Shown here: positions 30,864 through 60,604 of the stretch, one piece after another
Position numbering within the stretch: position 1 is the stretch's first letter
How the letters are laid out: every line of letters begins with the position of its first letter
Assembly (NCBI GenBank): GCA_004335835.1
Contig: RWJK01000514.1
Coordinates: 94,172-158,171 of the forward strand
From: Scenedesmus sp. ARA3
Lineage: Eukaryota > Chlorophyta > Chlorophyceae > Sphaeropleales > Scenedesmaceae
Direction of reading: 5' to 3'
Length of the DNA: 64,000 nucleotides
Position numbers and translations under genes: made by a program
The notes under the pieces: generated by a model
Seen by the model: the letters and a program-made list of their open reading frames with translations, nothing else
Database searches by the model: none
What the model was told of the DNA's origin: nothing

Positions 30864-33471
<2,608 letters not shown>

Positions 33472-34154: not shown

Positions 34155-37100
34155 TCACTGCGCCTTCCAGACCATCAGGTTCATGTTGCAGCCCACGCTG
34201 GTGTTGCCAGCCAGGCGCAGCCCCGCAGCGCTGAACAGCGCCTGCCATTCGCTCAGCGTGCGCCACGCGCCGCCAGGGCACTGCGCCAGGATCTCAATGG
34301 CAAACAGGCCTGCACAGCAGCATACAGACGCGGTGTGTGACGGGTCGCTTGCAAACATGTGACGCTGCGTGTCAGCCAGCACCGTAAGCTGCTTTCTACT
34401 CAACAGAGGTGACACCTCAGTGTGTCAAGAAGGCGTTGTAGTTTTAGTTGTTTAGCCATCGGTCAGTGATGCTAGCCTAATTTAAGAAAAACTATCCTGA
34501 TTTTAGCGCCCATCGACCATCCAGCCGCAGCTGAACATGCGATTGGTGCATCACTATGGAAAGGTTATAGCACCTGGACAGCAGCCTCAGAAAAATTTGG
34601 CCAGCTGTACATGCATGCCATACTGCAGTCTCAGCTTCTGCACTCACCTGGGGCCACGCCATCCTCGCAGGTGTTGTGCTGCCTGTCGCCAGCCTCAGGC
34701 ACCAGTGTCTGCAGCAGCAAAATGGAGCCGCCGGGCGCCAGCACCTCCCTGCAGGGCGGCAGCACGCCAGTACTCAGAGTCAGCAGGATTGGGAGCGTGT
34801 CGGGGCATGCCGCAGGTGCTTGAACTCGTGCAAATGATGAGGTTCTTTGACTCTTGTATTCTGGGGAGCGTAGGGGTTTGTGTGTGGTGGCGAGGCATGG
34901 CGAGCCCCATGCATTGTACAGCTGCCAGCTGCCAACCTTGACAACGCGCAGTTCAATGTGAGTTGGTCAACTTGCTGCATGCATGCGCTGCAAGGGCACG
35001 TGTGCAGCATGCAGGGTGCACAAGCCGCCGGCCCAGCGCAGCTGGCGCACATGTGGCAACTGTGACACCGCTGCTGTGCTGCACCGAGCACTTGCCTGCA
35101 GTGCTTCAGAATGAGGGCACAGTCCTCGTCTGAGAAGGCTGACAGGAAGTGCTTCATCAGCAGCGTGTCAACCTGCGGCAGCAGCAGCAGCAGTATGACA
35201 AGAACGAAGGATACAGCATACAGTTAACAACCAGATAGAGTACGCGCACTACTGGATAGCTTGGACGTGGCACAGCTGTGCTGCTAGCATTTCAAACGTG
35301 ATTGCCAAGCTCTCAAGCAGATCTGCCTGTCAACAGCCACGCTGTGTGGCACATGCTGCCAACGTGCAACAGCAGCCGCCACCATCACCGCACCACACTG
35401 CACCATACCACCCGCCACGCCCGCACCTGTGCCTGCTGCGCCTGTTGCGGGAAGGGCTGCCGCACGTCACCCGACATGAGCGTGAGCCGGCCCGCTGCAC
35501 CCGCCACACCCTTCGCCTCAAACATGCCGGGAATGTCGATGCTGCAGCAGCAAGGCAGGCGAAAGCCGTGCGCAGCAGCACCGCACGAGTCAGGCGTAGG
35601 CAAGCATGTGGAGCCGATGCACAGCCATTGGCACATCTGACCGGCTTCTGCAATGCACATCTAGCGCAGCTGGGCACCCCCTGGACACTGTTTGTGTCTG
35701 ATTTAGCAGCCAGCATGCCCAGTGAGTGTTGCGCACCGCGGCTACTAGCCGCTAGCGGCGCTAGTAGCGCGGCCACATCAGGCTGCAACCAGTTGGGGCA
35801 TGCCCTCAACACAACTATCAACATCCCACCTGTCGATGACCATCTGCCTGTCCAGCAGCAGCCCCTTGGCCTGCGGCCCTGCCCAGGACATGGCGGACGA
35901 CAGCAGCTCGCCACGCCCGCCACCCACGTCCAGGATCACACGCGCACCAGCCCAGTCGTACGCATCCTGCAATGCACAGGCAAAAAGGGGGGCCGGCAAC
36001 AAGGTGACTGCAAAATGACGAATGCTAGACAAAGCCAGGATCCCAAACGACGCTGTTAATGCACAGCTGCGTACCTTCAAGCAGTGCTGACTGTGCATTG
36101 CAGCATGCTGCAAGGCAGACGGCCTCTCTCTGCTGCTGCACATGCTGCATTCAGCACGGCATCCTATGTATGTTTCAGAGTTCCGCCGAGAACGCCTGAA
36201 GCAGCATAAGCACCAACTGCAGATCAGTTGAGAGCCACAGTAGTTGCCCACCGGTGATGCAAATGTATTGTATATATGTGGTATTACAGTATGCTGTTGG
36301 CTGCTGGGCGCGCCTGCGCAGCCGCAGCCGGCTCACCTTAAGGCTGGTGGCACCCCCTGCCAGGCTGTGGCATGTGAAGAAGCTCATGGCCTTCATGAAC
36401 TCCTCGCCATATGCGGCCTGCTCAGGCAGCTCCCCGTACTGCAGCAGGCGGGGCGGGCGTGAAGTGGGAAACATTTGATCTATGTTGTTGTCTGGTGATG
36501 GTGGTGGCGTGGCAAGCAAGCAGGCAAGCTGTTGGAAACGGAGCAACTCAGCACGATACTTGGCAGTGCCGGTTGCAGTAGCGTTCTGCTGCTCGCCTGC
36601 AAGAGATGCAGCTGCTGCACTGATAGCAAACATAGCTCCACATGTTGTCTGCGGCAGTGCCATGTGCTGTGTCTCTCACCTGGTACACGTCCATGCCATG
36701 GGCCAGCACAAACGCTGTCTTGCCCTGCTGCACAGCCTGGCGCCAGCAGCAGCAGCAGCAGCAGCAAGCAAGCAGCGCCGTGAGAATTGACAATGCAATT
36801 GCAGCGCAGCAGCGCGGCCACACACAGCACCCAACAGGCACGCACAAGATCATGAGGCACAATGTGGTGCAAGGAAACACAAGAGTTTCTGGCGCTGAGG
36901 GTATCGCGCTGCATGCCCACAGCAGGCTTTAACGAAGCGCAAGAGCAGCACCAAGCCGAGGTGGTGCACACTGCAGCCAGCGGCTGGCCAGCCTGCTATG
37001 GCAGCAAGCCTGTGAATGCTTCCCAGCAAAAATATCACAGGCCAACGCGGCAAATGCAATGCATGGCAGCCAGGCAAAGCCAGGCCGGGAGGCTCACCTG

Positions 37101-37954
37101 GGGCAGCACCTTCCATGCATCCCACTTGGGTGGGTTGATGAGGTGGCTGGCCATGTGGCCCAGGCTGGGAGCTTCACCCTGAACCAGCTGCACAGTGGCG
37201 GCGTTGGGTGTGAACTTCTTGCCGGGAAGTTCGTCCAGCATCTCGTGCTGCGCCAGCACGCGCAGCACCTTGTACAGGTGGCTGGTGGCGGTGGGGGAGG
37301 AGGCGCCGCACGCGGCAGCGATCTATGACGGCAGCAGAGACAACGCACCACAGAATCCACTATCTTTCAAGGATGTGAAAGGCCAATAGGGCTGGGAGAC
37401 TGCAGCTCATGGCTAGCGCACTTGCAGGCACGCCAGCGTGGTTGCCGGCTCTCGGATGTGTTGCAGGCAGCCAGAACCCACAACACCATGTGTGCGCATT
37501 GAAAGGCAACACAGCGCCAGGCAGCATCTACACTGGCTGACAACAGCAGCGTGCAGCATCCGGACCTCATGCCTGGGGCGCAATGTTTAGGCCTCTGCAA
37601 GCCAGACCCCCAGCCACTGCTTGCACAATACATCACCCTGGTAAGCTTGCGGTCCTTCGTGTCTGCTCGGTGCTCAATGCTTGGTTCTCAGCCTGCTGTA
37701 CACACCAAAATGCACAGCCTGTAAGAAAGGGACTCACCTGCTCGATGCTCATGCCTGCGCTGTCATCGTCATCAGCAGCAGCACCACGGCCGTTGGCAGC
37801 CCCCTTGGCTGCAGCAGGCTGCCCCGCTGGTGCATTGTCATGGCTGCTGCTGCTGGCGGCGTGGTCCACGAGTGCGTCTGCCACCTTGAGCTGCAGCATC
37901 ACTCCCAGGCAGGCACTCAGCCAGTGGCCCTGGATGGCACCAAACACCTTGGCT

Positions 37955-38002
<48 letters not shown>

Positions 38003-38297
38003 AGAGGGCACAAGGCAGCTGTCGGTATGCATTGGCTTTACATGGCGTGTGCCAGCAGCTTGCCCTGCTCTTCCTGGTGCCTCCTTGGTTGAAATGGTGC
38101 ATTGGCCACATCTGCTACATAAAAGCACCTACAACAGTAACAGGTGCGGGCCCGAGTGTCTTACCTGTGGCCTGCATTGAGGCATTTGAAGAGCCTTTTG
38201 TGCTGTGGGCATGACCTGACACAACATGGCCAACTGCTGCCTTGACAGCATTGCCGATGAAGCCAGGACTCTGAGCTTGAGGAATCTTGACGTCCAT
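34155..38297 (-). CDS. COMT-like SAM-dependent O-methyltransferase
   Basis: Ten exons (38297-38165, 37952-37738, 37322-37098, 36736-36680, 36438-36337, 35966-35830, 35541-35427, 35172-35096, 34748-34648, 34309-34155) keep phase and give 438 residues. The winged-helix dimerisation part includes KVFGAIQGHWLSACLGVML, CGASSPTATSHLYKVLRVLA and KKFTPNAATVQLVQ. The methyltransferase part has YGEEFMKAMSFFTCHSLAGG, the SAM motif VILDVGGGRGELL (254-266), DIPGMFEAKG, and C-terminal REVLAPGGSILLLQTLVPEA. In plant COMTs a catalytic His lies in the HDW-SDE motif; here the segment is KHFLSAFSDEDC, with Ser339 at that place and a His three residues earlier. Substrate is unknown. Intron 8 uses a GC donor (AG|GCAAGT). 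The gene starts 418 bases from, and divergent to, the methyltransferase-dehydrogenase gene, the first of the putative sunscreen cluster, so co-expression and a methylation or tailoring role are plausible but unproven. Confidence 0.88.
35090..35097 (-). promoter_or_regulatory. GC-AG intron donor (AG|GCAAGT)
   Basis: Exon 8 of the COMT-like gene ends TGCAG and the intron begins GCAAGT. This is the strong consensus for the minor GC class of U2 introns. Phase 2 then continues correctly into the acceptor before GGAGGTGCTGGC at 34748. Every other intron in the models begins GT. Confidence 0.8.
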
Positions 38298-38715
38298 TGC
38301 TTGCGTTGTTGCTGTGGCTCCTTGAAGCAGTACAGCAGTTGCCAGAACAGCACACCACTTTTCTCTTGGTTATTAGACTGACCAGTTAAATAAAGGCAAT
38401 TGTAAAAGTCGTGGCAGCCACTATTTCTGTACATCAATCACCTATCACATGACACACGACTGCTTATGCGCTCGATCGTGTGGCTCGAACTACCTTGTGA
38501 GCTTCACGCTGCGAGGTGTTGCGTCAGGGAATCTGTTATCCTGATCCAGTGCACAACATCCTGTGGCCAATAACACGGTACCACGTTGTCCAATAGTTCG
38601 ATAGCGCTTTATCTGGATTGCTGGTGAGCCAGCCAGCAGCAGCTGCAACCTTGGAAACTCTCGTCGCCACAGCAGCAACTGCACCAGCTTGGCTCGGCCG
38701 ACCACAGCAGCAGAC
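38298..38715. promoter_or_regulatory. Divergent promoter, COMT-like / OMT-SDR
   Basis: The two opposed ATGs are 418 bases apart. The block is AT-richer than its surroundings (for example GGTTATTAGACTGACCAG, GTTAAATAAAGGC). No specific operator is recognised. A shared bidirectional promoter is inferred from spacing alone. Confidence 0.5.
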
Positions 38716-41157
38716 ATGACTGGCGGAACTCAAGCAGAAGGCATTCATGCTACGGGCCAGCCAGACACTCCAATCGAGGTCCTGACTGCGCTGCTGACCA
38801 AGGCCCTGCAGCAGCAGACCCTGGAGCAGCAGCGGACATATGTGCAGCAAGCCCTAGACATTGCTGCTGGCCTGGATGATTATCTCGACAAGATCAGCAG
38901 CCCACCTTCACAGGTAGGGCTTGCCCCTGAATGGGGTAGCTGTGTTGGCAATGCAGGTGCTTGCAGCGGTGCTCAGCCGCAGCTGCACAGCTGTGTGCTG
39001 CCATACCTTTCGTGCAACAGACAGGCTCCAGGCAGCTGCACCAGCCGGCTTATTGAATTGCAACCACAAGCAGCAGCAGCAATGGTTTTGCAGCTTTTTG
39101 ACATGTGTGCAATGCGGCTGTGAGTTTTCGTGTTGTGCGCTGCTATATTTGAAGCCGCCAGTTACTGGTCCTGGCAATGTCAGCAGGAATGCACATAACC
39201 ACAGTGCTGTTACATCATGATGCGCTACACATTGTGCTGTGGGGAAGAATGCCAGACTGTTTCTGCAAGTTGTACACGCCATGTGGCAGCTGCCGCACAT
39301 TGTCTGCCTGCTTACTTGCCTGTCTCCTGCCCATAATGTGCTGCACAGGTGGTGTGTGAGCTGGTGGCCGCCTCTGTGAGCCACGACTGGGCTGGCGCGC
39401 ATGCTGCCGGCAAGACGCAGTTCCTCCAAAAAGCGGAGTGCTGCAGCGGCACGCTGGAGGGGCGCCTGCTGCGCTTCCTGGTGGCGGCCACAGGTGAGGG
39501 AGCTTGTTGCTGATTCTGTTGTGCTGCTAGTAGTCATACCATTGCTTAGGTCTGATTGCAACCATGCTGATGGTAGGGTGGCTGCTGCGCTTCCTGGTGG
39601 CAGCCACAGGTGAGGGCTGGGCCCTGAACTGCTTTACTGTGGCAGCATTACGTGTCTGGGGTTTAAGTGGAAGCATGATGTTTGGGGAGGGGCGGCTGCG
39701 CTTCCTGGTGGCGGCCACAGGTGGGGGCTGTTGCAATGCGCTTGTTGTGGTTAAAACAGGTTGATTGGCGACACAATGACGTTGTGTGGCCTTGGCAGCA
39801 GGCTGTCTGCTGAAGCAGGCTAGGCAGCTGCTCCCGGGCAGCTTAGATTGTAACAACGTAATTTTGCTTGTTATCAGTTCATGCTGCAGCCGCCAAGCAC
39901 GTGGTAGTGATTGCCGACATGTTCACAGGCACCAGGGTGCTGCATGCTGCTCAATACTGCCTGCTGGGTTGTCTGCTGCCACTGCTTCTCATGCTGTCGC
40001 CGCAGGCGCCAAGCGTGTGCTTGAGATTGGCATGTTTACTGGCACCAGCAGCCTGGCCATGGCAGAGGCACTGCCCGAGGAAGGCCAGGTGAGCAGCACT
40101 GTACAGGGTTGCAGGGTACACACTTTACATAAGCATGATTGTTCATTGGCACCAGCACCCTAGCCATGGCAGAAGCACTGCCCGAGGACGGCCAGGTGAG
40201 CAGCGTGCGCAGGCCGTATTACAAGCTTTGCATTGCATGGATGTAAACGCAGGATGTCTCGTAGGTTACAAAGAAGGTAGGTGCAGCAGCAGAGCCCATG
40301 GGCTGCCCACTGTCCCAAGCTAGCAGCAGCTGTCTAATGAATGAGACAAACCCCTATAAAGTGCTTGACATACTGCTGCTAATTGGCTGCTGCTGCCATC
40401 GATGCTGATGTTGTGTGCCTTGATATGCTGCAGCTGGTGGCGCTGGACATCGAGCCCTACATGGCCGAGTTTGCGGGGCCCTACTTTGCCGCCTCGGGCC
40501 TGGGTGGGCGCATCCGGCCCGTGATCGGGCCAGCACAGGACAGCCTGGCACAGCTGGCGGCAGAGGGCGAGAGGTGCGGACATAGTGATGTGTTCACCAG
40601 CTGCTACAGGACTAAGAGGGGGATCGACGCTTTTTTGTGCAGGCTTTTATCTTTGCACACATGTCCCATCATCGAATGCTGGCGTAGGCAACTGCTGGCT
40701 GCTCTTGTGCGGCTGATGTCCGTTGTCAGCGGCCCTAGTCTATGCTGCTGCTGGCACGCACGCACGCACACGCGCACTGCTGCCAACATGCCTCATGCCG
40801 TCTGCCTTGCTGCAGCTTCGACCTCATCTTCCTGGATGCCAACAAGGACGGCTACGCAGCTTACTACGATGCCATCATGCAGCACAGCCTGCTGGCGCAC
40901 AACGGGCTGCTGGTGGTGGACAACAGCCTCATGAAGGTGACTGAGGCAGCCATGTACTGTTGCTGGCTTTGTACGTTGGTACCATCACATGGCGCTGCAC
41001 CCGTACGTAGCTGGTTCCCTGCTGCATGTGTTTCTCGGTGCAAGGGAAGGAGCGATGTGACAGTGCGCCTCATACAAGCATGTGCTGCTTGACTGGTGGC
41101 AGTTGAGCCGTCAAGCCAAGATGTTTACATGTGATCTTGTTACCTAACTGGATGATA

Positions 41158-41250
<93 letters not shown>

Positions 41251-43950
41251 ACATGCCGTCCGCCGCCGCCAGGGCCGCACCTACGCCCCCGGCGGCGTGG
41301 CTGACGCGTCTGCTGACGCTGTGCGCGCCTTCAACCAGCAGCTGCTGGCTGATGGCCGTGTGGAGGTGGTGGCGCTGCCCTTCAGGGACGGTGTCAGCCT
41401 GGTGCGGCGGCGGTGAGTGCTGCTGCTGCCTTGAGGCTTGGGGGGCGCTCATGATGTCTGTGCGAGATGTGATGTCGGTGCGCGAACAGGGCATCCACAT
41501 GTCCTCTGCTGCGGGACAGGCTGCATGGCAGCTGCTCTGTTGCTGCAGCAGCAGCCACACATTCTTGACAGCATGCCAACAAGCAGGCAGTACTATTGCT
41601 TTTCGTGGGAGCCCAACAGCATGGCTAGCATGCGTGCGTGGTTGGTGTATGTCCATCATGGCTGCAGTGCTTGCACCGCAGGTCTATGCTCTGTTGCTGT
41701 GAGGACCATATACTTCAGCATGACCTTCTCCCCATGCACACCCTCTATGCTGCGGATGCAGACAAGCCCACCGCTGCAGGTCTCCTACTTCTGCCAGCGC
41801 AACCCCTTCGGCCGCCCCAGCAGCAACCAATGGCCAAGCTGCAGCTTTAAACGGCAGGCCTGCTGCCAGTACAGACCTGGCACCAGCAGCAGCACCTGCC
41901 GCTGATCCTGTGCTGTGTGGCTTCAGGGGCAACAGCCTGCTGCAGCGCTTCAAGCTGACAGGCAAGGCAGCACTGGTAACAGGTGAGGGGGCGGCGGTTG
42001 GCAGAGGCCACGAGCTGCAGCCCAAGCGACTGTAGGCTGCATTGCCTCGTTGTTGCACTGTGCAGAAGATCTATTGATGGTGTTGCTGCCCAAACCAGAA
42101 CCTGTTGCATGTGTGAGATGGGGTCAAAACATGCTGCGCACTGCTTGCAGGTGCTGGCCAGGGCATCGGCCGCGCCTGGGCACATGCGCTGGGAGAGGCC
42201 GGCGCTGCAGTTGCTGTTGTTGACCTGGACCTTGCTAAGGCACAGGCTGTGGCTGGCGAGCTGCTGAGCAAGGGTGTGCGGGCGCTGGCGGTGCAGGCTG
42301 ACGTGGCCAGCAAGAAGGACTGCCAGCGGTGAGGCGCCAGCACGCTTCCGGACAGCTAGTATGCGATGCAAAGCTGCCTAGGTTTCACACTGCAAGGTTT
42401 GCTCCTGTTGCCATTTGCGGACAGATGCCGGTGCACATCACTGGCCCAGCAGTGACCCTGAGACACTGAGCTGCTGTGAGTTGCGTGCACATAACATTTA
42501 ATTGCTGCACGTGGCATGGCCTCAGCTGGTCCAGCTGCATGCAGGCAGGCAAACTGCAGGCAAAATACACCACACTCAGGTGCAGGTACAGCTGCTGCTG
42601 GTGGCATTCATTTCATGGTTTGCTGCACTCCTGCAGGATGGTGGCTGCTGCTGTGGCTGGCTTGGGTCGGCTGGACATTGCGGTCAACAACGCAGGCATC
42701 AACCGCAACAGCGCGGCAGAGGACACCCCTGAGGGCGAGTGGGACATGACGTTTGTGGTCAACGCAAAGGGCGTGTTCCTCAGCTGCCAGGTGAGCCGGT
42801 GTAGTGGAATAGCAGCGCTTGGCTTGTAAAGTGCACAGCGCATTAGTAACCTTGCTTTCTACACACAGGGCATTCCACTAAAATCAAGGCCACCTGCTGG
42901 CCCCTGGAAACCAGAAAAACACATACTGCTGTACAGTACAGACATTGTCATCCGTGTAACACCCTGTTGCACTGCTGCTGCTGCTGCTGCTGCTGCCCTG
43001 CAGGCTGAGGCGTCCCACATGCTGGCTCAGGGCTACGGCAAGGTCATCAACACCGCCAGCATGGCCTCACTGCTGGTGCCACACCCGCAGAAGCAGGCAG
43101 CATACAACGCCTCCAAGGCAGCAGGTGCGGCATCGCTGCTGTGGGCCTGCCTCACAGCTAGGATGCAATGCGTGCGTGGCGCGACTGAGAGCTGAAGCTG
43201 TCACAGGACTGTTACATGACATGGTGCTGGTGTCTGCTGCCGCCTGCCAGTGCACCTCAAGACCAGCTCGTTGCCTGGGCGGTGCACACCTGGCCAAGCA
43301 ATGCTTGCAGGTGCGCAGATTTGCATTTTTATTCTAGACTGTCCATCTTTACACCAATGGTGATGAAGTGTAACTCCTGCTTCTGCTGCTGCTGCTGCTG
43401 CTGTGGTGTGACCTGCAGTGGTGAAGCTGACGCAGAGCCTTGCATGCGAGTGGGCGGACAGGGGTGTGCGCGTCAACTGCGTGTCGCCAGGCATCGTGAA
43501 CACCGCGCTGATCCAGGTGCGGATGGCGCACAGCAGCTGGTGCCTCAGTGCATCTCACATTTGTTCTGAAGTTTGTGCTGAGTGGCTGCTGGTCACCTCG
43601 GCAGTGTGAAGTCATGTACAGATGCTGCGTTGCTAGCAGTCTTGTCACCCGAACGTTTGTCACCACTGTGCATGGCCGACGGCGGTTGCAAGTATCCTCA
43701 GCAAAACTTTCGTACCTCCTGCAGACACCGCTGCTTATGTTGCTGCTTTTGTTGCTGCATTTTGCCTTTGCTCCTGCAGGAGTCGCCTGACCTGCAGCCG
43801 CTGGTCACTTCCTGGCTGCAGCAGATCCCTGCAGGCAGGCTGGCTGAGGTGACCGACCTGCAGGCCGCGGTGGTGTACCTGGCAAGTGAGGCCAGTGACT
43901 ACATGACCGGCCACAACCTGGTCATTGAGGGTGGGCAGAGCCTGTGGTGA
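38716..43950 (+). CDS. Bifunctional class I O-methyltransferase / short-chain dehydrogenase (predicted fusion)
   Basis: Twelve exons (38716-38913, 39349-39493, 40006-40088, 40434-40573, 40816-40936, 41273-41412, 41798-41982, 42151-42328, 42637-42790, 43004-43124, 43419-43516, 43780-43950) stay in phase and give 577 residues. Residues 1-275 are a CCoAOMT/MysB-type methyltransferase: [33 protein letters not shown], metal site [13 protein letters not shown] with [11 protein letters not shown], and [15 protein letters not shown]. Residues 276-320 are an Ala/Pro linker. Residues 320-577 are a classical [39 protein letters not shown]482NASK486, IRVN-like [10 protein letters not shown], and [15 protein letters not shown], closest in pattern to sorbose/xylulose reductase or mannitol dehydrogenase types. 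If the 41413 donor is not used, the methyltransferase ends at TGA 41414-41416 with 276 residues. I favour fusion because the dehydrogenase part has no in-frame ATG of its own. In context it probably acts with the neighbouring cyclase and ATP-grasp. Confidence 0.78.
39460..40206. repeat. Exon-edge tandem copies in OMT introns 2 and 3
   Basis: The 3' edge of exon 2 plus donor (anchor GCGCTTCCTGGTGG) occurs at 39471 (exon), 39587 and 39698. The exon 3 region (anchor GGCACCAG) occurs at 39928 (diverged), 40041 (exon) and 40148 (near-perfect, with donor). Spacings are 116 and 111, then 113 and 107. Confidence 0.9.
41161..41250. repeat. (CTG)30 array in OMT intron 5
   Basis: Thirty uninterrupted CTG units end 22 bases before the acceptor of exon 6 (CCGCCGCCGCCAG). 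The array takes the place of a normal branch-point/pyrimidine region. Confidence 0.95.
41798..43950 (+). other. SDR module of the fusion (separate gene under the alternative model)
   Basis: This segment (six exons) encodes the complete SDR fold. Its first exon begins [20 protein letters not shown] before the [14 protein letters not shown] Rossmann motif. No ATG lies in frame between the preceding stop and this motif. The only alternative start I can offer is ATG 41621 with a poor donor (TG|GTTGGT) spliced to 41798, which would give a short MASMRAC leader. Confidence 0.6.
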
Positions 43951-44090
43951 CGGCAGGCGGCAGTCAGTGCTGGTTGTTTGGGTGGGAGAAGGAACTAGCA
44001 AGGGTAGTGACTACATGACATGATTGGCCACAACCTGGTCATTGATAGAGGGCAGAGCCTGTGGTGACGGCAGGCGGCATGGAGTTGGGT
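43894..44090 (+). repeat. Duplicated SDR C-terminal exon end
   Basis: The last coding block and stop (AGTGACTACATGACCGG to CTGTGGTGACGGCAGGCGGC) at 43894 are repeated at 44006 with small indels, a spacing of 112. The second copy lies after the stop and is a broken, untranslated copy of the [15 protein letters not shown] end. Confidence 0.92.
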
Positions 44091-46309: not shown

Positions 46310-49309
46310 TTAGCGTGCTGCCATGGCACCCTTCACAGCCAGGCTGCTCTTCATCTTTGCCACAGCCTCAGCAGCTGCTGCACAGCCGTGCTCAGCAGCA
46401 TAGCCAGCCAGGCGTGTTGCCGCAGCCGCCATCTCTTGCTCGCTGATGTCGTTCACAAACACGGCAGCCCCAATGCCGTTCATGAGTGGCGTGCGCTGCA
46501 GGCCGTCACGCGTGCGGGTCATGTCCTCCAGGCCCTGCAGACAAAGAGGCGCAATGCACAACAAGCAGCAGACAACTCAGCATTACCAGATGTAAATTCA
46601 TCGAGTACGATGCGCATGACAGTGCAACTATCAGGTACAATGGCGTGTCATTCATTGCATCACCCGCCCAGTGCTCTGGCGGCGAAAGCGGCGCATAACA
46701 GGCAATGGCAGTGTGCACTCCTACCATCTTCAAACCAACACATGATAGCCTGCCGCCAGCATGCCGCCCCACCTTCATGAACAGCTTCACGCTGCACGCC
46801 TCGTGCCACAGCGGCAGCCGCAGGCAGCATAGCAGGCCCAGCACACGCCCCCGCTGCTCATCACTCAGCAGCCCGCGGCCCCAGGCCAGCTCCGTGGTCA
46901 GAGCCATGTCAATGGCCACTGCCTCGCCGTGCAGCAGCATGGAGGGAGACCTGCAGCGGCAGCACATGTGGCGGTGGCACATCAGTATCAAACAGCTGGC
47001 AAGTACCTGTGGCGACAGTGGTGCTGGTTGCCACAGCCTCGCCGTGCAGCAGCATGGAGGCGACATGCAGGCGGTCACACATCAATGATGCATTCACAAT
47101 GCATTGTGCAACTCCCAGATGCTGCTGGTGCCTGATCACAAGGGCTGGACACCAGTATTGATGTGCACTGCGTGTCATGCAGCAGGCAAACAGCAGCAGC
47201 CCCAGCAGCAGCGCAGCGCAGCGCAGCGCAAGTGCAGAACACTGCACTCTTGCCCCCACGCACCGCAGCGCCGCCATCTCCAGCTCTGGGCTTATCGTGT
47301 GTCCGTAGTCCACCAGCCGCGCCAGGTGCGCCTCCCACAGGTTGTACTCCAGCTCCTCAAGCATACCCTGGATGCTGCGGCGGATGGCGGCAGCGCCAGC
47401 GGGGCTCTGCAGGGACGAGAGGAACGCAGCAGAAGCAGCAGTTGTTGGCACATGCTTCAAAACTGGCAGCGGCAGTTGACTGTGCACGATTCAGCTGCTG
47501 CCGCTGCTGAACATGATACATGAATAGCACAGCATAAGTCACGCCCAGCACCTGCAGATCATCATCTTCTCATGCAGAACAACACCAACCCATGCAGCAA
47601 TGCAATCCCCGCCCCAGCTCACCTGGAACTTGCTGGCCACCAGCTGCTGTGCATTGCCCTCCAGCAGGTCAAACAGCGGCGCGTCCTTGATGCAGGCCAT
47701 CTTGAGCATTTCAGCCGCCCCGTTGCTGATGTGGCGCGCATCCAAGGTTGTCAGCAGCGACACGTCACACAGCACGCCCAGGGGTGGGCAGTAGGTGCCT
47801 AGCTTGTTCTTCTTGTCGCCAAAGTTGACAGCTGTCTTGATGCCAACAGAGGCATCCACCACAGCCATCACAGTGGTGGGCACCTGCGGGGGAGGGGTGG
47901 GTACGAGGGAGGAACACAGGAAGCATGCAACAGAGGGTGATGCAACAGCGGAGTAAGGCCATTTTGCAGGATGGTAATATGTCGTGCAGCACCTGAGCAC
48001 GTGCTGCCTCTAGCAAGCAGCTCTTTTGAAAACTGATGCAGCAGTGTCAATTCGAAAGCATATTTAAGGCATATAAAATCTGTCACCGTCATTGCAGGTC
48101 GCACGTTCAGCAGCAGGTGCAGAAATGACTCCGCGGCTGCACGGTGCATTGCAGCAGGTGGTGTTTCTACGCGCACCGCCCCACCTTGATTATGGCTGTG
48201 TTGCGCCGGTACAGGTTGGCGGCCAGCCCCGCCACGTCCAGGCACACGCCGCCGCCAATGGCGATGATGGGGTCGGAGCGCCTGGGGAAGCAGGTGCAGC
48301 AGCAGATTCACAGTTGCAGCCGCCCTGTCAGTTCTCTTGTGAGAAGTATCCAAAAAGCATGACCTGCTGGACAAACCATTAGATGCCTGAAAGATGTGAA
48401 GCTTGTACATCAGTTCTGTGCATGCTGTGCGGCACAAGCGTGGCACAGCACACATCACAGCTGCGCAAATCCAACTGTTCAACGCAGTGACAGGCACGGA
48501 CTATTGTGTGCCCTCCCCGCCTCAGCCCTCTCCCCACCTGTTGATCTTGAAGCCCTCGATGGCCTCCGCAATCTGCTCCACCAGCCCAAAGTGCTTGTTC
48601 TCCTCGCAGGTGGGCAGCGGCAGCAGCTGCGCCTCCACGCCGTGGTGCGCAAAGTACTGCGGGGCATTAGCGGCGGCAGCAGCAGCAGAACTTGGTGCCC
48701 GAAGCAACAGCTGATACATTGTATAGGCAAGCACACGAATCTGATTGCACTAGCACCACAGCTCCTGGGGCATTAAAGTGGTTGATGCTTAATTGCTTCT
48801 GCTCTTCTACCCACCATATGCTGCTGTGGCATGCAGCAACATGTCAACCCAGCCACTGGTGTACAGCAGCTGCTCACCGCCCTGATCTGTTGCCCGTAGA
48901 TACGCCCCACATTAGAGTCGATCACCACCAGCCGCCGCAGCCCCGTGGTCACAGCAGGCTCAGGGCCCAGCGCAAAGGGGAAGGAGCCAGGCACCACACC
49001 GCGCAGCAGTGCCTGCGGGGGCGGGTACAGCAGTACAGCAACAGGTGGTGCATTACTGAGTGTTCTGTGGCAGCGCCTGCGGCTGCTGATCAGTGCATGT
49101 GGCTGACTAACACAGGAGGCTCGCACACTACGTTGCTGGATTGGGGAGGCCGGTGAGGCTACTACTCTGTCGTAGCATTGCTGCAGGTTATGCTACGTGC
49201 GCTGCTGTGGCTGCAAAGTGCCGCACCTTGTTGTGTGGCTCAAAGATGCCCGACACCTCCTGCACCGTGTAGTGCACCGGCATCGTAGCCGACACGCTGA
49301 AGCAGCCCT

Positions 49310-49341
<32 letters not shown>

Positions 49342-49658
49342 TTGAATGATAGGGTCAGGCTGAGCACGAAGGCTGGTGCTGTGGCTTTGCTGAAACAGGC
49401 TGGTGGCATCTGTGCATTTGCATAAATGAACTTGTGGTTTCAAAAGTGCCGCGCCTAATTAGCAGTTGCAGTGCTCTATTAGTGTGGCCGAGCTGACCAA
49501 AGAGAGCCTCAATCAGCTGCTGACACACCAGTTGACTCTACCTCTTGTCCCTGCCACAGGAATATTCCAACTCTTGTCACACTCACCGTTGCCAGGCCTG
49601 AGGTGCCGCCCACAGTCAGGCCGTTCAGTCCTGGCCTGTTGTGCAGCGATGTGTCACC

Positions 49659-49689
<31 letters not shown>

Positions 49690-50135
49690 CTGCCAGGGCC
49701 TGGCAGCGGCTGTGCTGGCGCGCTGCTGTGGTTGAAGTGGTGCTGCTGGTGTGTCAGCGGGTGCAGCAGCGCCGACAGGTCCTCTGTAGGTCCTGGCAGC
49801 GATGATAGCTCCTGAAAGCTGTCGGGAAAGGCCTCCATCAGCTGGGTGTTGGCTGCTGCTGCATCTGCCACAAATGCGGCATCTGTGGCATCGGCCAAGC
49901 ATGGCTCAGCCGCCCAGGGTGCAGGCTGGCAGGCAACTAGGCAGGGCCTTGCGTTGCACTGCTTCTTCAGGGTAGCTGCGTGCAGGGAGCTGTTTGTTGG
50001 ATGGATTGATGCCCCTTTGTTGAAGTTGGCAGCTGGGCTCTGCACTGCGCTGAAGCGTGCAGGCATGCTGCGGCTGCTGTGGCAGATCTTGCCAGCAGGC
50101 ATGCCCAGAACCGAGGCTGCAGGTCGCAGATGCAT
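46310..50135 (-). CDS. Sugar-phosphate cyclase of the EEVS/DDGS class
   Basis: Nine exons (50135-49587, 49307-49227, 49012-48878, 48656-48538, 48281-48185, 47883-47623, 47406-47264, 46950-46773, 46534-46310) give 595 residues in unbroken phase. Residues 1-183 are an extra N-terminus: a Ser/Ala/Arg-rich transit-like start (MHLRPAASVLGMPAGKICHS) then a Gln/His/Ala-rich linker. The dehydroquinate-synthase fold has VVIDSNVGRIYG, EENKHFGLVEQIAEAIEGF, nucleotide motif IIAIGGGVCLDVAGLAANLY, and VPTTVMAVVDASVGIKTAVN. Metal ligands are E385 (ISNGAAEMLKM), H450 (VDYGHTISPELE) and H469 (LLHGEAVAIDM). KNKLGTYCPP and ARHISNG are patterns of the EEVS/DDGS branch, not of true dehydroquinate synthases. The enzyme cyclises sedoheptulose 7-phosphate to 2-epi-5-epi-valiolone or desmethyl-4-deoxygadusol. 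The similarity pattern (LYRRNT, KNKLGTY, AEMLKM) leans to EEVS. It is divergent from the ATP-grasp gene. Confidence 0.92.
46920..47067. repeat. Duplicated exon 8 edge of the cyclase
   Basis: GCCGTGCAGCAGCATGGAGG occurs at 46926 (inside exon 8, coding SMLLHGEA on the minus strand) and again at 47041 in intron 7, a spacing of 115, with the acceptor-like sequence beside it. Confidence 0.9.
49310..49339. repeat. CAG tract abutting the cyclase exon 2 acceptor
   Basis: In minus-strand sense ten CTG units run directly into CTGCAG, the acceptor of exon 2. It is the clearest case of a triplet tract serving as the 3' splice-site region. Confidence 0.85.
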
Positions 50136-50814
50136 TGCTGTAGATTGCGTTTTTTTGTTGCGCGGAAGGCTTGGCTTGATCACGGAAAAGCCAGGTGCAG
50201 CAAGCGATTCCAAGGGTTTGATCAGGGCCGTCCAGAGCAATACAGTACAATTGCGACAAGACACGAAACAATCTCCGGCAAGCAGTAAGAAGTTAAGAAC
50301 TGTCTAATTATTGTGACCTACTGGTTTTGAGGTCAGAGGCGGTTTGGGTCGATTGCGAATCTCAGCGTGTGGCTGAGCACCTGTCCAACATTCGGCAGTT
50401 TGCCGAGGTGACGTATGTGCAGCCGTGTGGCTACGCCATTCGCATGGAATCTTCAGCCACGCTTATGCTGAGCAAATTGAATGCACGAAATAGGTTTGCT
50501 GATTACTGTTTCTGTGGATCGTACATTGTGCTGACTGCGAAGCAGTACTGCTTTGAGCGCCCAACGCAGCTATGGGAGCAAGTGATGCCGTCGGCACAAA
50601 CAGTGCATTGGCGCAAATATGCCCCTCTGCAGCACTTCCTGTGAGTGCAGCAACTTCTGTCACACAGAAACTCACTCTGTACTCGCCAGCAGCATGCTGA
50701 CGTTTGCACAGCACAACTTTGAATCAAACACAATACATGTGGCAGCACTCAGCTCCATGGATGCATTGCAACAAAGCAATATCAGCAAGTATTTCTTTGT
50801 TACCGTATGTATGC
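50136..50814. promoter_or_regulatory. Divergent promoter region, cyclase / ATP-grasp
   Basis: About 680 bases separate the two opposed starts. A plus-strand frame open from 50327 to 50644 has no ATG near its start and AT-leaning codons, so it is taken as leader or promoter. No operator is recognised. Shared control of the two pathway genes is inferred from the arrangement. Confidence 0.5.
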
Positions 50815-53510
50815 ATGTGTGCGCTCTTGCAGGAGGTTCAAGCAGCGGTGTCAGCAGATGCTGCCAACAAGCGTGTTGGTAAGCAGCTGCTGCAGCAGCT
50901 GCCTTGGTGGGAGAAGCTGCAGGCTAGGTTGAGAAGCTATGCCTTGCTGCTGGTGATATACACCACATTCTGGGTGAGTGTCTTCACTCCGTGTAGCGGG
51001 TTTGGCAGGCTGTGCAGTTGAAAAGGCAAATGCACTGGGCAAGAAGCTGTGCCCTGTGATGCGCAATGCAGCATGCATTCAAGCGGCAAGCAAGCAGCCT
51101 GTCTGATGCGCAGCAGCGCAGCACTCACACCACCAACCCCACGCTCATGGCTGTACAGCTACAGGACGCATAGCCGATGCAGCCGGTTAGATCAGTGACA
51201 GCCCTCCATTTTAAACATACATGGCATATGCCGCTGCTGCTGTGCCCTGCTTGCAGCCCACATTGGCTGCCACCCTGCTTCTGTCATGGTGGCTGCAACC
51301 AACCACACTGCTAGTGCCAAAGCACAACAGCAGCAGCAGCAGCAGCACAGGCCCCACGCGCACAGCAGCCATCAGCAATGGCACCAGCCAGCATAACACA
51401 GCTCAGCTGGGCAGCAGCAGCAAGCCTGGCACAGTGATGGTGACAGGTGAGCCGCATGCAATGCAGCAGCTGTTTTGCACGACCATTGCGGCAGAATGAA
51501 GCTACTGGACAGGATGGAAGTCTGCAGCAAGCATATACACACATGCTTCATAGTCAGCTGTGCAATGTGCAGGTGCTGACAGAATGTGCGTCAAGGTGTA
51601 GCGCTACTCAATGCAGGAGCTGTGATGCTTAAAATTGCCCGACAGCAACACAGCAGCTCTCCCAACATCCCGCAACTTACGACTAGATGTCAACGTGCTG
51701 TGCGCCCTCTGCTGCTGCTGCTGCTGCTGCTCCTGCCGCCGCGCTGTTCACTGCCAGGCGGCAAGATGACCAAGGCGCTGCACGTGTGCAGGCACCTGGC
51801 TGCTGCTGGCTGGCGCGTGGTGCTCGTCGAGACACACAAGTACTGGCACGTGGGGTCGCGCTTCAGCAGCAGCGTGGCATCGTTTCACACTGTGCCAGTG
51901 CCTGAGGACCACCCAGAGGCCTACGTGCAGGCACTGCTGGGTGAGCAGCGGTTGTATGTGTTTTGAGAGAGGATAGTTACGTGTGGGTCCTGGCACCATC
52001 TTGGATGGTATGAGCCACAACAGGTTGAACACAGGTCTGAGACCAGAGAAGGAGAGTGAGCACCATAAAACACACTGCACACCCTTGAGCACCAAATCTC
52101 TCATGTTATATCCAGAGACGTCTTACTGCGGTGCGCAACGGCACCCCACCTCATCGGCAGCGTGCTCTAAGTGTTTTGCTTCCTGGAATACACATACCCT
52201 GTTTGCAGGAAACGCAGAATGGCTGCAGCAGTGATTGCAGTCTGCATGTTTGGGCACACGCAAGCTGCATTTGAAGCCAGTGCTAGCGCACCGCAGCCAC
52301 TGTCCAAGAATGCATGGGCATCATCCTGCTCGTTGCTGCCTCTGCTGCTGCCCTGCAGGCATTGCGGCGGCTGAGGGAGTGACCATGTTCATACCCGTGT
52401 CCTCACCCATAGCCAGCCTGTACGATGCCCTGGCAGGGGAGGCGCTGGCAGCGCAGGCACAGGCGCAGGGCCGGCAATGCAGGTGGGACACAAGTGTGCC
52501 TGGGTAGCTGGCCCCATAGCAGAGTTCTCGAACTAGGAGTAATCCCCATCGTACTGCAGGTCATCCTGCTTGAACTCATCCCTAGCGCACTGCCTGTCAT
52601 ATATTTGCGTCAGCACTAGAATGTCGCTGTAAAACCTGTCCTTTGCAGGTCCTGGAGCCTGCCTGCTGCCACCACAGCGCTGCTTGATCACAAGGGCAGC
52701 TTCTCAGCCCATGCTGCAGCACTGGAGCTGCTGGTGCCGCAGCACCATGTGGTGACCTCCCCGCAGCAGCTGCAGCAGCTCAACTCGGAAAAGGTGGGGA
52801 GGGCGTTTGCCTGCTTGTATGTACTTGAAGAGCTGGTCCTATCAGCTGTCCTGTTATGCTGGTTTGCGAACATAGTTGTAAACAGTTGCGAACATAGTTG
52901 TATTGCTGCTTGCTGCCTGCTCAAGCCACCACCGCTGCAGCCTAGCATGGGCTATTTTATTAATTTTTTGGTGACACGATGTGTGACTGAGCAAAATGGC
53001 ATCCAGCATCCTCCAAATGTTACAAAACTGACCAACCAAACCAGCATCATGCATATGATACGTGTGCCACGTGTGATTGTCTGCTTTTTGCCGCTCTTGT
53101 TTTCCCAACCGCAGGCCCTGGGCGCGGGGCGGCGCTTTGTGCTGAAGAGCGTCGCCTACGACTCTGTGCACAGAGCCGACCTGATGCTGCTGCCCTGCTC
53201 GGCAGCCAAACTGGCAGCATACCTGGCGCGGCCTGACATCAGCATCACACAGCAGTGCCCCTGGATCCTGCAGGAGTACATACAGGTGGGGGCTGCTGCT
53301 GCTGCTGCTATTGCATGCTTTGCACTTGCTCAATCAAGCAGCACTGCTGCAGCACTGGCAGTGCAGGCGGGCTTCGGCAGTGGCGCAGCTGCACTGCTAT
53401 GTTGGGTTGATGCTGCTCACAGTAGCAGCACTTGGATATCAGAAGCATGAAGAAAGGTGCAGCAGGCCCTCTACACGATCTGCTGACGTCTCCCCTGTGC
53501 TTGTTTTGGC

Positions 53511-53567
<57 letters not shown>

Positions 53568-55855
53568 CTGTGTTGCCTGCGTGCAGGGCCGCGAGTATTC
53601 CTGCTACAGCCTGGCACACCTAGGCCGCTTGGTGGCGCACGCCGACACAGCAGCTGCACTGTCCAACCTCAACTACAAGTATGAGGGTGAGCCTCAACCA
53701 GAAGCACAGTAGGACGTCCCTGTGCTTGCACTGCAGACTGGCGATTGCATGTGTTTGTTCAAGTAGGTGTGGCTCTCAAAGCTGCCTTCGCATAGTGACA
53801 TCCTGCAGCCCACAGCGCGCAAAACTTGGGAGGCTCCCGACACAGCAAGTCACCTGCCGGCAGTGCCAACACTGACATTGTGGGTGGGTTGGGCGTTTGT
53901 GCAGTTGTTTGTATTGCCAGCTAGACGCCTTGAACACATGCAGCACTGCACCTGTGATGCATGCTTTGAGTCACTCCCTTTGGCACCCACTCACCCGTGC
54001 AGGGCACTCGGCCATCCACCAGTGGGTGGAGGCCTTCGTGCAGCGCACCAACGCATCCGGGCAGGTGAGCAGGCTCGGCGCAGGCGGAGCTGCACATGCA
54101 AACACAGGACCAGCCTGGCCTGCACCCACACTGTGCTGGTTGTGCTGCTCCAGCAGCTGGCGCGACAACAGCAAGTCACAGCGTCCCTGCTCGGGTAGAG
54201 GGTGTGGAGCCCAGGGTCGCTGCCCCTGGCCACACACACCCTTTTAGCCTTAACTTACCCAGGAGCTGCCGAGCTGCCTGGGTAGTCACTCAGTCACTCA
54301 CTCACGTCCCTGCTGTGCTGTGCATTGCCTCAACACAAGCGGCGTCCTGCAGCTGAGTGTAAGTGCCATGCAGCAGCCTTCAAGGCTGGCAGGAGCAGCA
54401 CCATGCCTGTGGCACAACTGCCACAGTCATGCTCTTGTATACTGCCCTTTTCTAAAGGGGTCGTGGTTTTACCACGCGTTTGCGCTCTCACAGCAGCGAG
54501 TGTGTGGCTAGCAGCAACAACAACGGCCCCGCCTTGCTGTCTGCCTGCAGCTGTGCTTTGACTTCATTGAGTCGGTAAAGGATGGCCGGCTGTACTGCAT
54601 CGAGTGCAACCCGCGCACCAGCAGCGTCATCACTGAGTTCCATGACAGCAGCCAGCTGGCAGCAGGTGAGCAGCCACGGCTGCCTGCAACAGCACAGTCC
54701 AGAGTTCTGTTAGACAACCCTGCGCTGTGCAGAGTGCTTTGAATTGAGGGCCTCAAGAACATCACCGACTGGCAGCCGTACCGGCTGGTAGCAGATTTGC
54801 TGCCTGATTTCAGCCAGATCATTCTGCAGCCAGGGATTGCTGCCACCAGCCTGCACGTGAGCGACGTGTGTCGTGGTTGTAGTTGTAGAATTAGCACAGC
54901 AGCTAATCATATACGGTTCTAATCGTATACGGTTACAACTGTAGAAGGTTCTAATCAAACCAAATGTATCTGCTTCAGCGGCGTCGCCACACGCACGTGT
55001 GTTGCCTTGCCTGCCTTGCCTGCCTGCGCTCCGCTCAACGTGTGCCGCACTCCTTTTCTGTGCATGCGCAGCATTTGCCAGCCCTGCAGATGTGCACCAG
55101 ACCATCAACCCGCTACCACACAGCTGCCCCATCTACTGGTGGTGGAACGAGGTGGCGCGCCTCGCAGCCAGCCCCTGTGAGTAAACAGCGTTTGAACGTG
55201 CACAGGCTGACTTGTGTGCCTGCCGCCTGTGACGAGGGGGCCTGCTGCCAACAGCCCCAGCACATCATGGCTGTCATGTGTTCCTCGATTTGTAACGCAT
55301 GTGCAGAGTGGGTGCAGAAGTATTGTTACTGCATGGACAGACTGCCGGGTACACCACCGTGCAGATGCTAAGTGAGGCTGTGTCTGCTGCTGCACACCAC
55401 TCCATCGCTGCTGCAGGGTGGTATGCACCCACTTTCCTCTCGGTGATCGGCGCGGGCGTGGATGGTGTGTTCACACCTGCCGACCCATGGCCCTTCATCG
55501 CACTGCACTACCTGCAGGTACGCAGTGGGAGTTAGCAATGTTATATGTAACTGTCATACAACAGCTATGCATGCACACCGTGCTAGGGATGTACACATGA
55601 CCGTCCACTGCAAGCCTCTTTCAGCTGGTGCTGACACCCATACACTAACAGTCAGCGACTAGCAACACTGCATCACCTGCTAGTAGAACACTCAGGTGCT
55701 GCTGGTTGATGTCGTCTACGCACCGCTGCCGACATGTTGCTGTGTTGATGGTTGCGCAGGTGCCGGCGCTGCTGGTGGGCAACATGCTGCGCGGCAACCC
55801 CTGGAAGAAGGTGGACCTGTGCATTGGCAAGGTGGCGGAGCTCTACAGCGATTGA
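50815..55855 (+). CDS. mysC: ATP-grasp ligase of the MysC (mycosporine-glycine synthase) type
   Basis: Twelve exons (50815-50973, 51257-51446, 51758-51940, 52359-52482, 52649-52793, 53115-53285, 53587-53686, 54003-54064, 54551-54665, 55072-55176, 55417-55517, 55760-55855) keep phase and give 516 residues. The start is the weakest point; ATG 50815 reads in frame into EVQAAVSADAANKRVGK. Residues about 40-75 are hydrophobic (YALLLVIYTTFW; PTLAATLLLSWWLQPTTLLV), probably a membrane or targeting segment. The ATP-grasp fold follows: TVMVTGGKMTKALHVCRHLA, VVLVETHKYWHVGSRFSSSV, FIPVSSPIASLYDALA, RFVLKSVAYDSVHRADLMLL, PWILQEYIQGREYSCYS, metal site LCFDFIE with YCIECNPRTSS (E396, N398), and the MysC-like tail INPLPHSCPIYWWWNEVARL, DPWPFIALHYLQVPALLV. 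MysC joins glycine to 4-deoxygadusol using ATP. The neighbouring cyclase and methyltransferase supply the expected precursor. Confidence 0.9.
53512..53565. repeat. (CTG)n array in ATP-grasp intron 6
   Basis: About 18 CTG units lie just upstream of the exon 7 acceptor (TTGCCTGCGTGCAG at 53586). Confidence 0.9.
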
Positions 55856-60377: not shown

Positions 60378-60411
<34 letters not shown>

Positions 60412-60568
60412 ATGCAGAGGAAGTGCGTCGGGCTGCTGCTGCCACTCTAATGCTGGCTGGTGTGGATGCAGAGGCTGCTCGTCATGCGTCGTGTGCCTAG
60501 CACCGCTGTGGTATGTCCTGCCATGGGTCTGCTGCTCTGCCTTGCCCTGAGTAACAGGTTCACACCAC

Positions 60569-60604
<36 letters not shown>

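Follow-up and report, generated by a model that had tools for sequence, protein, structure and literature searches.

A putative gadusol-type mycosporine gene cluster in a scenedesmacean green alga, with a COMT-like methyltransferase carrying serine at the family's histidine position

Which sunscreen, if any, is made by four adjacent genes of the green alga Scenedesmus sp. ARA3, and what does the fourth of them contribute? The genes lie in a window of 64,000 nucleotides (contig RWJK01000514.1 of assembly GCA_004335835.1, positions 94,172 to 158,171), in whose own numbering all coordinates are given. A first-pass annotation had proposed a gadusol/mycosporine cluster and presumed it to be new for a chlorophyte; the latter premise does not hold, since a neighbourhood of the same kind, together with the idea of a gadusol core, was published in 2020 for other green algae (Foflonker and Blaby-Haas, PMC7826186). 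The window shares with that neighbourhood, described for Klebsormidium nitens, Chromochloris zofingiensis and Coccomyxa subellipsoidea, the same four families, all adjacent (an EEVS-like cyclase, an MT-Ox, an ATP-grasp resembling MysC and a methyltransferase akin to those linked to mys genes in cyanobacteria), as well as the proposed gadusol core; it differs in species, as Tetradesmus, Scenedesmus and obliquus are absent from the main text of that article, and the passages of it considered here contain neither a missing histidine nor an N-methyl proposal. New here are a COMT-like enzyme with serine at the position of the family histidine and the linkage of such Ser-type enzymes to MysC.

Four genes in two divergent pairs

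Gene models spliced by hand place four complete genes between 34155 and 55855, arranged as two divergent pairs and flanked by a ribosomal protein gene and a MYB gene. Each has 8-11 introns, in agreement with the initial description of four adjacent, intron-rich nuclear genes.

31682..33462, plus strand: ribosomal protein S12/S23 family gene, left neighbour and cluster boundary (outer coordinates approximate)
34155..38297, minus strand: gene for a COMT-family methyltransferase (Methyltransf_2, Pfam PF00891, 9.9e-23), 438 aa in 10 exons, related to the Ser-type cyanobacterial methyltransferase group
35140..35142, minus strand: codon of Ser339 of the COMT-like enzyme, from alignments (coordinate and residue number derived by hand from the exon table)
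38298..38715, no strand: 418 bp separating the divergently oriented methyltransferase and MT-SDR genes; may serve both as a promoter
38716..43950, plus strand: MT-Ox (MT-SDR) gene, a fusion of Methyltransf_3 (MysB-like) and short-chain dehydrogenase, 12 exons, 583 aa
46310..50135, minus strand: gene for a putative EEVS-like cyclase of sedoheptulose 7-phosphate, 595 aa in 9 exons; exon 1, of about 183 aa, partly low-complexity
50136..50814, no strand: 679 bp separating the divergently oriented cyclase and ATP-grasp genes; may serve both as a promoter and may contain an unrecognised exon 1 of the ATP-grasp gene
50815..55855, plus strand: gene for a putative ATP-grasp ligase of the MysC type, 516 aa in 12 exons; both its start codon and its first exon are uncertain
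59077..62270, minus strand: MYB-domain protein gene, right neighbour and cluster boundary (outer coordinates approximate)

Reading frames are open in all four final models and introns are of the GT-AG type, the sole exception being a GC-AG intron in the methyltransferase gene. A comparison with annotated proteins, made for three of the four models, gave identities to Tetradesmus obliquus proteins of 98.6% for the cyclase (584 aa, gap-free) and 97.4% for the MT-SDR protein (583 aa, one gap), and of 98.9% to a database protein for the ATP-grasp model (463 aa, gap-free). Bacterial contamination was rejected in view of the intron numbers and of the ribosomal protein and MYB genes on the flanks. 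In a genome search, the COMT-like and ATP-grasp proteins matched this locus only, with no second copy of either; the methyltransferase half of the MT-SDR protein has further, weaker matches on contig C407, and a separate aroB-like gene lies on contig C623. The two divergent intergenic stretches have 14 9-mers in common, compared with a mean of 4 and a maximum of 12 after shuffling (both strands counted, single-base shuffles, two stretches only).

Families of the cyclase, the fusion protein and the ATP-grasp enzyme

The cyclase has DHQ_synthase and DHQS_C domains. Among solved structures it matches best 4p53 (333.6 bits), which we take to be the EEVS ValA, with 237.1 bits for 5tpr, presumably a DDGS. 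Diagnostic positions, 41 in number, were derived from 15 actinobacterial homologues (some of them not named EEVS) plus 4p53 on the EEVS side and, after removal of L054, L086, L088, L094 and L103, from 63 MysA sequences plus 5tpr on the other; at these positions the cyclase agrees with the EEVS set in 30 residues, with MysA in 3 and with neither in 8. In a tree of 42 rows, which included 12 of the 68 usable MysA sequences and 25 rows assigned to no group, it belongs to a clade of cyclases from algae and fungi (100/100) that is separate from the MysA clade (100/99) and from the DHQS rows (2 only). Its score against a curated aroB model is 195.2 bits, below the cut-off of 305. A DHQS (AroB) identity was rejected on the basis of this score and of the separate position in the tree, and a DDGS (MysA) identity on that of the scarcity of MysA residues and of the placement outside the MysA clade. 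Judged by its sequence, the cyclase is EEVS-like and neither a DDGS nor a DHQS; the DDGS half of the original label "EEVS/DDGS-type" is accordingly dropped and the EEVS half kept, and the grouping with true dehydroquinate synthases that would have undone the cluster idea is not seen in the tree.

The second protein joins a Methyltransf_3 to an adh_short domain, so that the fusion described at the outset as a MysB-type methyltransferase joined to an SDR stands; it can be refined to a relative of MT-Ox, as the protein is 53.7% identical over 574 columns to Danio rerio LOC541322, taken here as the zgc:113054 MT-Ox, and its methyltransferase domain has a median identity of 42.3% to 76 cyanobacterial MysB-like genes. 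The zebrafish enzyme has been demonstrated to act in gadusol formation, and EEVS plus MT-Ox suffice for gadusol, in yeast cells as well as in vitro (Osborn et al. 2015, PMC4426668). Unlike this vertebrate pathway, with which it has the EEVS-like cyclase and MT-Ox in common, the window contains two extra genes, for a MysC-type ligase and a COMT-type methyltransferase, and the end product should therefore be an amino-acid adduct of gadusol.

The ATP-grasp protein matched no family in a Pfam scan and had no meaningful match among PDB sequences, and its fold was therefore predicted. The resulting structure (pLDDT 86.7) has 50 listed PDB structure matches, which are carboxylases, synthetases and ligases and which we presume to be ATP-grasp enzymes; in addition to this fold, the protein contains the ECNPR motif that is invariant among the 26 sequences aligned. 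An algal-plus-cyanobacterial MysC profile yielded 409 loci. The best 80 of them, ranked against the cyanobacterial first sequence and mainly from Nostocales, were retained; the window protein matches all 80 of these best loci, and a cyclase is present at 75 of them and a MysB-like methyltransferase at 76. Sequence, the neighbourhoods of its cyanobacterial relatives and predicted fold together indicate that the enzyme is a relative of MysC, as its first label had it. Membership among unrelated ligases, the other outcome that would have spoken against a cluster, was rejected on the strength of the 80 matches and the fold: the protein is related to cyanobacterial MysC. With these checks of cyclase and ATP-grasp, made at the level of sequence, the gadusol/mycosporine interpretation gains support.

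A MysC-type ATP-grasp and a MysB-like methyltransferase domain are thus held in common with cyanobacterial mysABC, some instances of which are also linked to a Ser-type methyltransferase (7 of the best 80 of 409 MysC loci); the window differs in its apparently EEVS-like rather than DDGS cyclase, the fusion of the methyltransferase to an SDR and its intron-rich nuclear genes. A further system of similar content is a cyanobacterial operon (G008, locus L147) in which an EEVS-like cyclase, a Methyltransf_3 protein, MysC and a Ser-type methyltransferase are contiguous on one strand. Its cyclase is 96.8% identical to that of Gloeocapsa sp. PCC 7428, a type that the main tree places as sister of the algal and fungal clade (89/89) but a quick tree among other bacterial cyclases. 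The small methyltransferase of this operon has an identity of only 30% with the algal domain, and no SDR gene was found in the 19.5 kb searched. A single transfer of the whole operon from a cyanobacterium to algae is not supported, because the MysC of the operon does not group with algal MysC in a FastTree tree with several weak branches.

A serine-type methyltransferase linked to MysC

The name COMT-like is justified by the Methyltransf_2 match of the remaining protein, whose SAM-binding motif is intact. Where generic relatives carry the KH(I/V)xHDW-like motif of COMT-type O-methyltransferases (for example YLLKHIIHDW), however, alignments place LLMKHFLSAF in the window protein, with Ser339 in lieu of the histidine that we take to be the catalytic base of the family. 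Serine is found in 13/13 distinct cyanobacterial loci of the enzyme's own subgroup, as in the window alga, and histidine in 23/23 generic relatives checked. These 13 Ser-type and 23 His-type loci are what was left, some entries being the same gene, from 31 of 63 listed matches (30 with loci, plus L114), L113 and seven MysC-linked loci; as the check was limited to 31 of the 63, it covered histidine in only 22 of 36 genomes with weaker matches. The check for serine covered cyanobacteria and the window alga; algae with reported N-methyl MAAs are Klebsormidium and Apatococcus.

A subgroup search of 386 cyanobacterial genomes relates the COMT-like enzyme to methyltransferases encoded near mys genes. 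MysC lies on the same contig within 15 kb at 11 of the 13 distinct Ser-type loci and not at the other 2, and all seven subgroup genes found within the best 80 of 409 MysC loci are of the Ser type. Strong relatives occur in 8 of the 386 genomes, all with serine and all with MysC, which is itself present (E below 1e-60) in 41; within this sample the Ser-type subgroup is confined to MysC-bearing genomes (Fisher p 8e-9; 8e-7 once the two genomes that led to the subgroup are set aside). In 4 of the 8 genomes the gene and MysC are neighbours, less than 600 bp apart; in 2 more they lie within 15 kb, and in 2 (G124 and G170) far from each other. Among the 36 genomes with weaker matches only, MysC is present in 8, somewhat above the remaining genomes (p 0.04), though in these 8 never within 15 kb of the weaker match listed.

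We propose that the COMT-like enzyme is the N-methyltransferase of the pathway, because serine replaces the histidine, Ser-type enzymes track MysC and some gadusol-core MAAs of green algae carry N-methyl groups. Klebsormidins, which absorb at 324 nm, are built from N-methylserine on a gadusol-type core (PMC7118736), and algasporine-glycine also has an N-methyl group (PMC13312787); prasiolin, a gadusol-type core with glutamate and no N-methyl (PMC4698291), counts against this reading. Loss of such a base would fit methylation of an enolate or a carboxylate as well.

Proposed pathway, alternatives and meaning

From the genes, domains and families observed here, and from the serine and its linkage to MysC, a pathway can be outlined whose first three steps follow characterised relatives. 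The EEVS-like cyclase would convert sedoheptulose 7-phosphate to 2-epi-5-epi-valiolone, which the MT-SDR fusion, like its zebrafish relative, would oxidise and O-methylate to gadusol; the MysC-type ATP-grasp would couple an amino acid, most likely glycine, to gadusol, and before or after this step the COMT-family enzyme would methylate the amino-acid nitrogen. The predicted product, a gadusol-core N-methyl-glycine mycosporine of the algasporine-glycine/klebsormidin type (C11H17NO7, [M+H]+ 276.1078, about 322-324 nm), would be an isomer of the "mycosporine-serine" reported in a related alga. To this reading as a whole, a green-algal gadusol-type mycosporine pathway with an N-methylating fourth enzyme and such a product, we assign a probability of about 0.5.

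The related alga is Asterarcys, of the same family, which accumulates a compound of m/z 276.1069, quantified at 323 nm and assigned by MS/MS to mycosporine-serine, for which its authors proposed a different route (PMC13208308). Its transcriptome contains cyclase and ATP-grasp homologues and an O-MT candidate of 60-70 kDa, which, together with the Adh_short entry in the domain list of a figure, fits an MT-Ox fusion; MysC was set aside in that study for want of a recognised ATP-grasp domain. When phosphorus was limiting, the transcript of the cyclase increased 2.75-fold and that of the O-MT fell to 0.67-fold, opposite changes that do not show co-regulation (PMC13208308). These changes count against our reading, as do the authors' own assignment and route and the other structures proposed for Coelastrella rubescens, another member of the Scenedesmaceae (PMC8704241). 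It is a tentative extension of our reading that the Ser subgroup N-methylates mycosporines, explaining the N-methyl of klebsormidins and algasporine-glycine, and that the scenedesmacean compound of m/z 276 and 323 nm is the isomeric gadusol-core N-methylglycine mycosporine, with MysC as its ligase.

Within the same gadusol-type pathway, the fourth enzyme could instead be a His-independent O-methyltransferase acting on an enolate, ring hydroxyl or carboxylate, so that the product would bear an extra O-methyl or a methyl ester on its gadusol core. Most listed family members are named O-methyltransferases, the SAM motif is preserved, and passages of PMC7826186 speak of a "subsequent methylation" after amino-acid attachment with the atom unnamed; given the serine at every distinct subgroup locus checked, and an N-methyl or no extra methyl in the gadusol-core green-algal MAAs considered here (PMC7118736, PMC4698291, PMC13312787), we regard this as unlikely. 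Rather improbable is a product without extra methyl, either plain gadusol or its amino-acid mycosporine, with the COMT-like enzyme acting elsewhere or being dispensable: its precedents, gadusol from EEVS and MT-Ox alone (PMC4426668) and prasiolin (PMC4698291), are set against a COMT-like gene that diverges from MT-Ox across a common 418-bp stretch, has its only genomic match here, belongs to the published neighbourhood (PMC7826186) and has a subgroup that tracks MysC in cyanobacteria. A canonical 4-deoxygadusol pathway (DDGS, MysB and either MysC or an enzyme resembling an NRPS), the kind presumed in Asterarcys (PMC13208308), is very improbable despite the presence of homologues of cyclase, methyltransferase and ATP-grasp and the match of the Asterarcys compound to the mycosporine-serine formula, considering the EEVS-like diagnostic residues and tree position of the cyclase, the fusion of the methyltransferase to an oxidoreductase and an absorbance at 323 nm that is nearer to the 324 nm of gadusol cores than to the 310 nm of mycosporine-glycine (PMC7118736, PMC13208308). 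Chance proximity of four genes of unrelated pathways, for which one can cite the Elliptochloris ATP-grasp gene, listed on a different contig from the cyclase and MT-SDR genes, is scarcely credible in light of the same clustering in other green algae (PMC7826186), the close gene numbers of orthologues among the matches listed (Chromochloris Cz11g05100/05110, Coccomyxa viridis g6478/g6480, gene7119/7120/7124 of a eukprot set) and the restriction of COMT-like and ATP-grasp matches to this locus, the MT-SDR methyltransferase half also matching C407 weakly.

In summary, the published green-algal sunscreen cluster is now placed in an alga that is Tetradesmus obliquus or very close to it and in which the pathway could be put to the test, and its Ser-for-His methyltransferase offers a concrete handle on the role of the fourth gene and on the MAA structure to be expected. 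If the N-methylation reading is true, one recent structural assignment, that of mycosporine-serine in the Scenedesmaceae, would need revision, and the Ser-type gene would serve as a genetic marker of N-methylated MAAs, algal as well as cyanobacterial.

Architecture and source of the gene cluster

Because clustering of the same four genes in K. nitens, C. zofingiensis and C. subellipsoidea has been reported by Foflonker and Blaby-Haas (PMC7826186), who already proposed a mixed vertebrate/cyanobacterial logic with a gadusol core and later methylation, and EEVS and MT-Ox were noted in Coccomyxa in 2015 (Osborn et al., PMC4426668), the cluster is of a known kind and the window copy is an added example. 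The window corresponds to positions 94172-158171 of contig C353 in the source genome G000, whose assembly totals 87.3 Mb. Its cyclase shares 99% identity with a Tetradesmus obliquus protein (P0001) and its MT-SDR 97% with P0121, versus 84% with a second MT-SDR (P0122), both labelled T. obliquus; the source is therefore T. obliquus (Chlorophyceae, Scenedesmaceae) or a very near relative.

The four gene models, spliced by hand, are all open frames; splice sites are canonical except at a single intron of the COMT-like gene, which is GC-AG, and three models (cyclase, MT-SDR and ATP-grasp) agree closely with annotated proteins. Arranged in the order methyltransferase (-), MT-SDR (+), cyclase (-) and ATP-grasp (+), the genes form two divergent pairs with start-to-start gaps of 418 and 679 bp, the inner MT-SDR/cyclase pair being convergent.

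Features surrounding the four genes
Left flank of the cluster: ribosomal protein S12/S23 gene
59077-62270, minus strand: MYB-domain gene, right flank of the cluster
50333-50643, plus strand: open frame of ~100 aa, possibly coding, spotted by eye within the divergent region that precedes the ATP-grasp gene
39433-39730, 40033-40204, 43901-44079 and 46915-47060: incomplete repeats of the ends of coding exons, located in adjacent introns or shortly after a gene end

The MYB-domain gene is a possible regulator of the cluster. Between the ribosomal and MYB boundaries, no additional enzyme gene was seen in scans that covered one strand per gene region and, in the flanks, used a codon-usage score and Pfam spot checks. 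The exon-end copies are spaced 107-117 bp. From MT-SDR they repeat the final part of exon 2 together with the donor site (three copies), the bulk of exon 3 and the terminal part of the last exon, and from the cyclase the beginning of exon 8; they could be decoy exons derived from local duplication.

Affinities of the cyclase, MT-SDR and ATP-grasp

The window cyclase contains the Pfam domains DHQ_synthase and DHQS_C. Its score is 333.6 bits with 4p53, which we take to be EEVS ValA, and 237.1 bits with 5tpr, taken to be the Anabaena DDGS. Its assignment as a dehydroquinate synthase (aroB) was rejected, the score of 195.2 bits lying under the curated aroB cut-off of 305. In the tree, it falls inside a 100/100 clade with green algae and three fungi, and MysA sequences make up a separate 100/99 clade; at 41 diagnostic positions it is EEVS-like in 30, MysA-like in 3 and neither in 8. 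Since the EEVS rows are not a single clade in the tree, "EEVS-like" is the safe wording for this enzyme.

Three observations concern related sequences. The Apatococcus lobatus cyclase (P0031) has a long branch and groups with chytrid fungal cyclases, apart from other green algae, a placement that could reflect transfer or a long-branch artefact. The Myrmecia bisecta cyclase (P0011) has a Nudix hydrolase domain annotated in the same protein, which may be a gene-model error. Finally, the source genome carries a separate aroB-like gene (contig C623, 15406-16517) to which pieces of the profile align more than once and in each of the three frames; numerous introns, duplicated exons or an error in the assembly could produce this pattern.

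The MT-SDR combines Methyltransf_3 and short-chain dehydrogenase domains (Pfam), a fusion common to green algae, fungi and fish. Identity to zebrafish P0187 is 49.2% over the methyltransferase half and 68.1% over the SDR half, and the former has a median identity of 42.3% to 76 cyanobacterial MysB-like genes. P0187 bears the name LOC541322 and is here taken as zgc:113054, a name that is found on many fish relatives and was used for MT-Ox in the gadusol paper (PMC4426668).

No Pfam family matched the window ATP-grasp, whose non-algal relatives share ~38-44% identity, those with names being mostly cyanobacterial and in a few cases actinobacterial. Its fold was predicted with a pLDDT of 86.7 from a 26-row alignment, in which an ECNPR motif is invariant (26/26), and has matches in the PDB that are presumably ATP-grasp enzymes. 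Searching bacterial genomes with an algal plus cyanobacterial profile yielded 409 loci, of which the best 80 were retained; the window protein matches all 80 of these, and a cyclase is present in 75 and a MysB-like gene in 76. Four of the five loci without a cyclase lie on short contigs or start at the match, and L087 has none in the 10 kb upstream.

Candidate products

Klebsormidin B consists of a gadusol-type ring and N-methylserine and absorbs at 324 nm, K. crenulatum contains a further 322-nm compound of mass 275, and the shift from 310 nm was put down by the authors to the extra ring hydroxyl (PMC7118736). The NMR shifts of klebsormidins place N-CH3 at roughly 34 ppm and C6 at roughly 75 ppm (PMC7118736). 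An N-methyl group is also present in algasporine-glycine of Apatococcus (PMC13312787). By calculation, condensation of gadusol with N-methylglycine and loss of water gives C11H17NO7 ([M+H]+ 276.1078), a formula and mass shared by 4-deoxygadusol plus serine and by gadusol plus alanine. Another member of the Scenedesmaceae, Asterarcys, makes a compound that was assigned to mycosporine-serine; its m/z is 276.1069, with collection at 320 nm and quantification at 323 nm (PMC13208308).

In that study the Asterarcys MysC homologue was set aside on the ground that it showed no recognisable ATP-grasp domain (PMC13208308). The Tetradesmus MysC likewise lacks a Pfam match, yet its predicted fold is that of an ATP-grasp; the grounds for exclusion may therefore not hold, a reinterpretation that is ours and not that of the Asterarcys authors. 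Under phosphorus limitation, the Asterarcys cyclase transcript rose 2.75-fold and the O-MT fell to 0.67-fold (PMC13208308), which counts against simple co-regulation.

Ser-type methyltransferases and MysC in cyanobacteria

The window COMT-like enzyme has a Methyltransf_2 domain (Pfam). In PDB alignments, its LLMKHFLSAF stretch lies opposite LIKHVLHDW of MmcR and VLKHIVHDW of AlpH, whose aligned His we take to be the catalytic base. In a sample of 386 cyanobacterial genomes, all belonging to the same phylum as G001, a match of any strength to this enzyme occurs in 44, with a sharp gap between eight at E < 1e-42 and the remainder at E > 1e-30. Ser occupies the His position in 13/13 distinct loci of the strong subgroup, and His is found in all 23 generic relatives checked.

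MysC lies within 15 kb on the same contig in 11 of the 13 Ser-type loci, the others being L116 and L119. It is present in 8/8 strong-subgroup genomes versus 41/386 overall (tallied by hand at E < 1e-60; Fisher p 8e-9), an association that persists without G001 and G003, the genomes through which the subgroup was reached (Fisher p 8e-7). The two genes are adjacent in four genomes (<600 bp), and the distance between them is ~6 kb in G003 and ~14.6 kb in G322; in G124 and G170 they are unlinked. Genomes with weaker matches only contain MysC in 8/36 cases (p 0.04), and in none of these eight is the listed match near MysC.

The cyanobacterial genome G008 carries the following row.

L147 (G008:C70:24000-43500), 6545-11117: EEVS-like cyclase, 219-aa Methyltransf_3 protein, MysC and Ser-type COMT-like methyltransferase, side by side

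No SDR was found in the 19.5 kb searched at this locus. The G008 cyclase and its counterpart in Gloeocapsa sp. PCC 7428 share 96.8% identity, and G008 is the only one of the 386 genomes with so strong a cyclase match (E 4e-106; next 3e-69). The row is a bacterial counterpart of the algal gene set, minus the oxidase, and shows that an EEVS-like cyclase and MysC co-occur in bacteria too.
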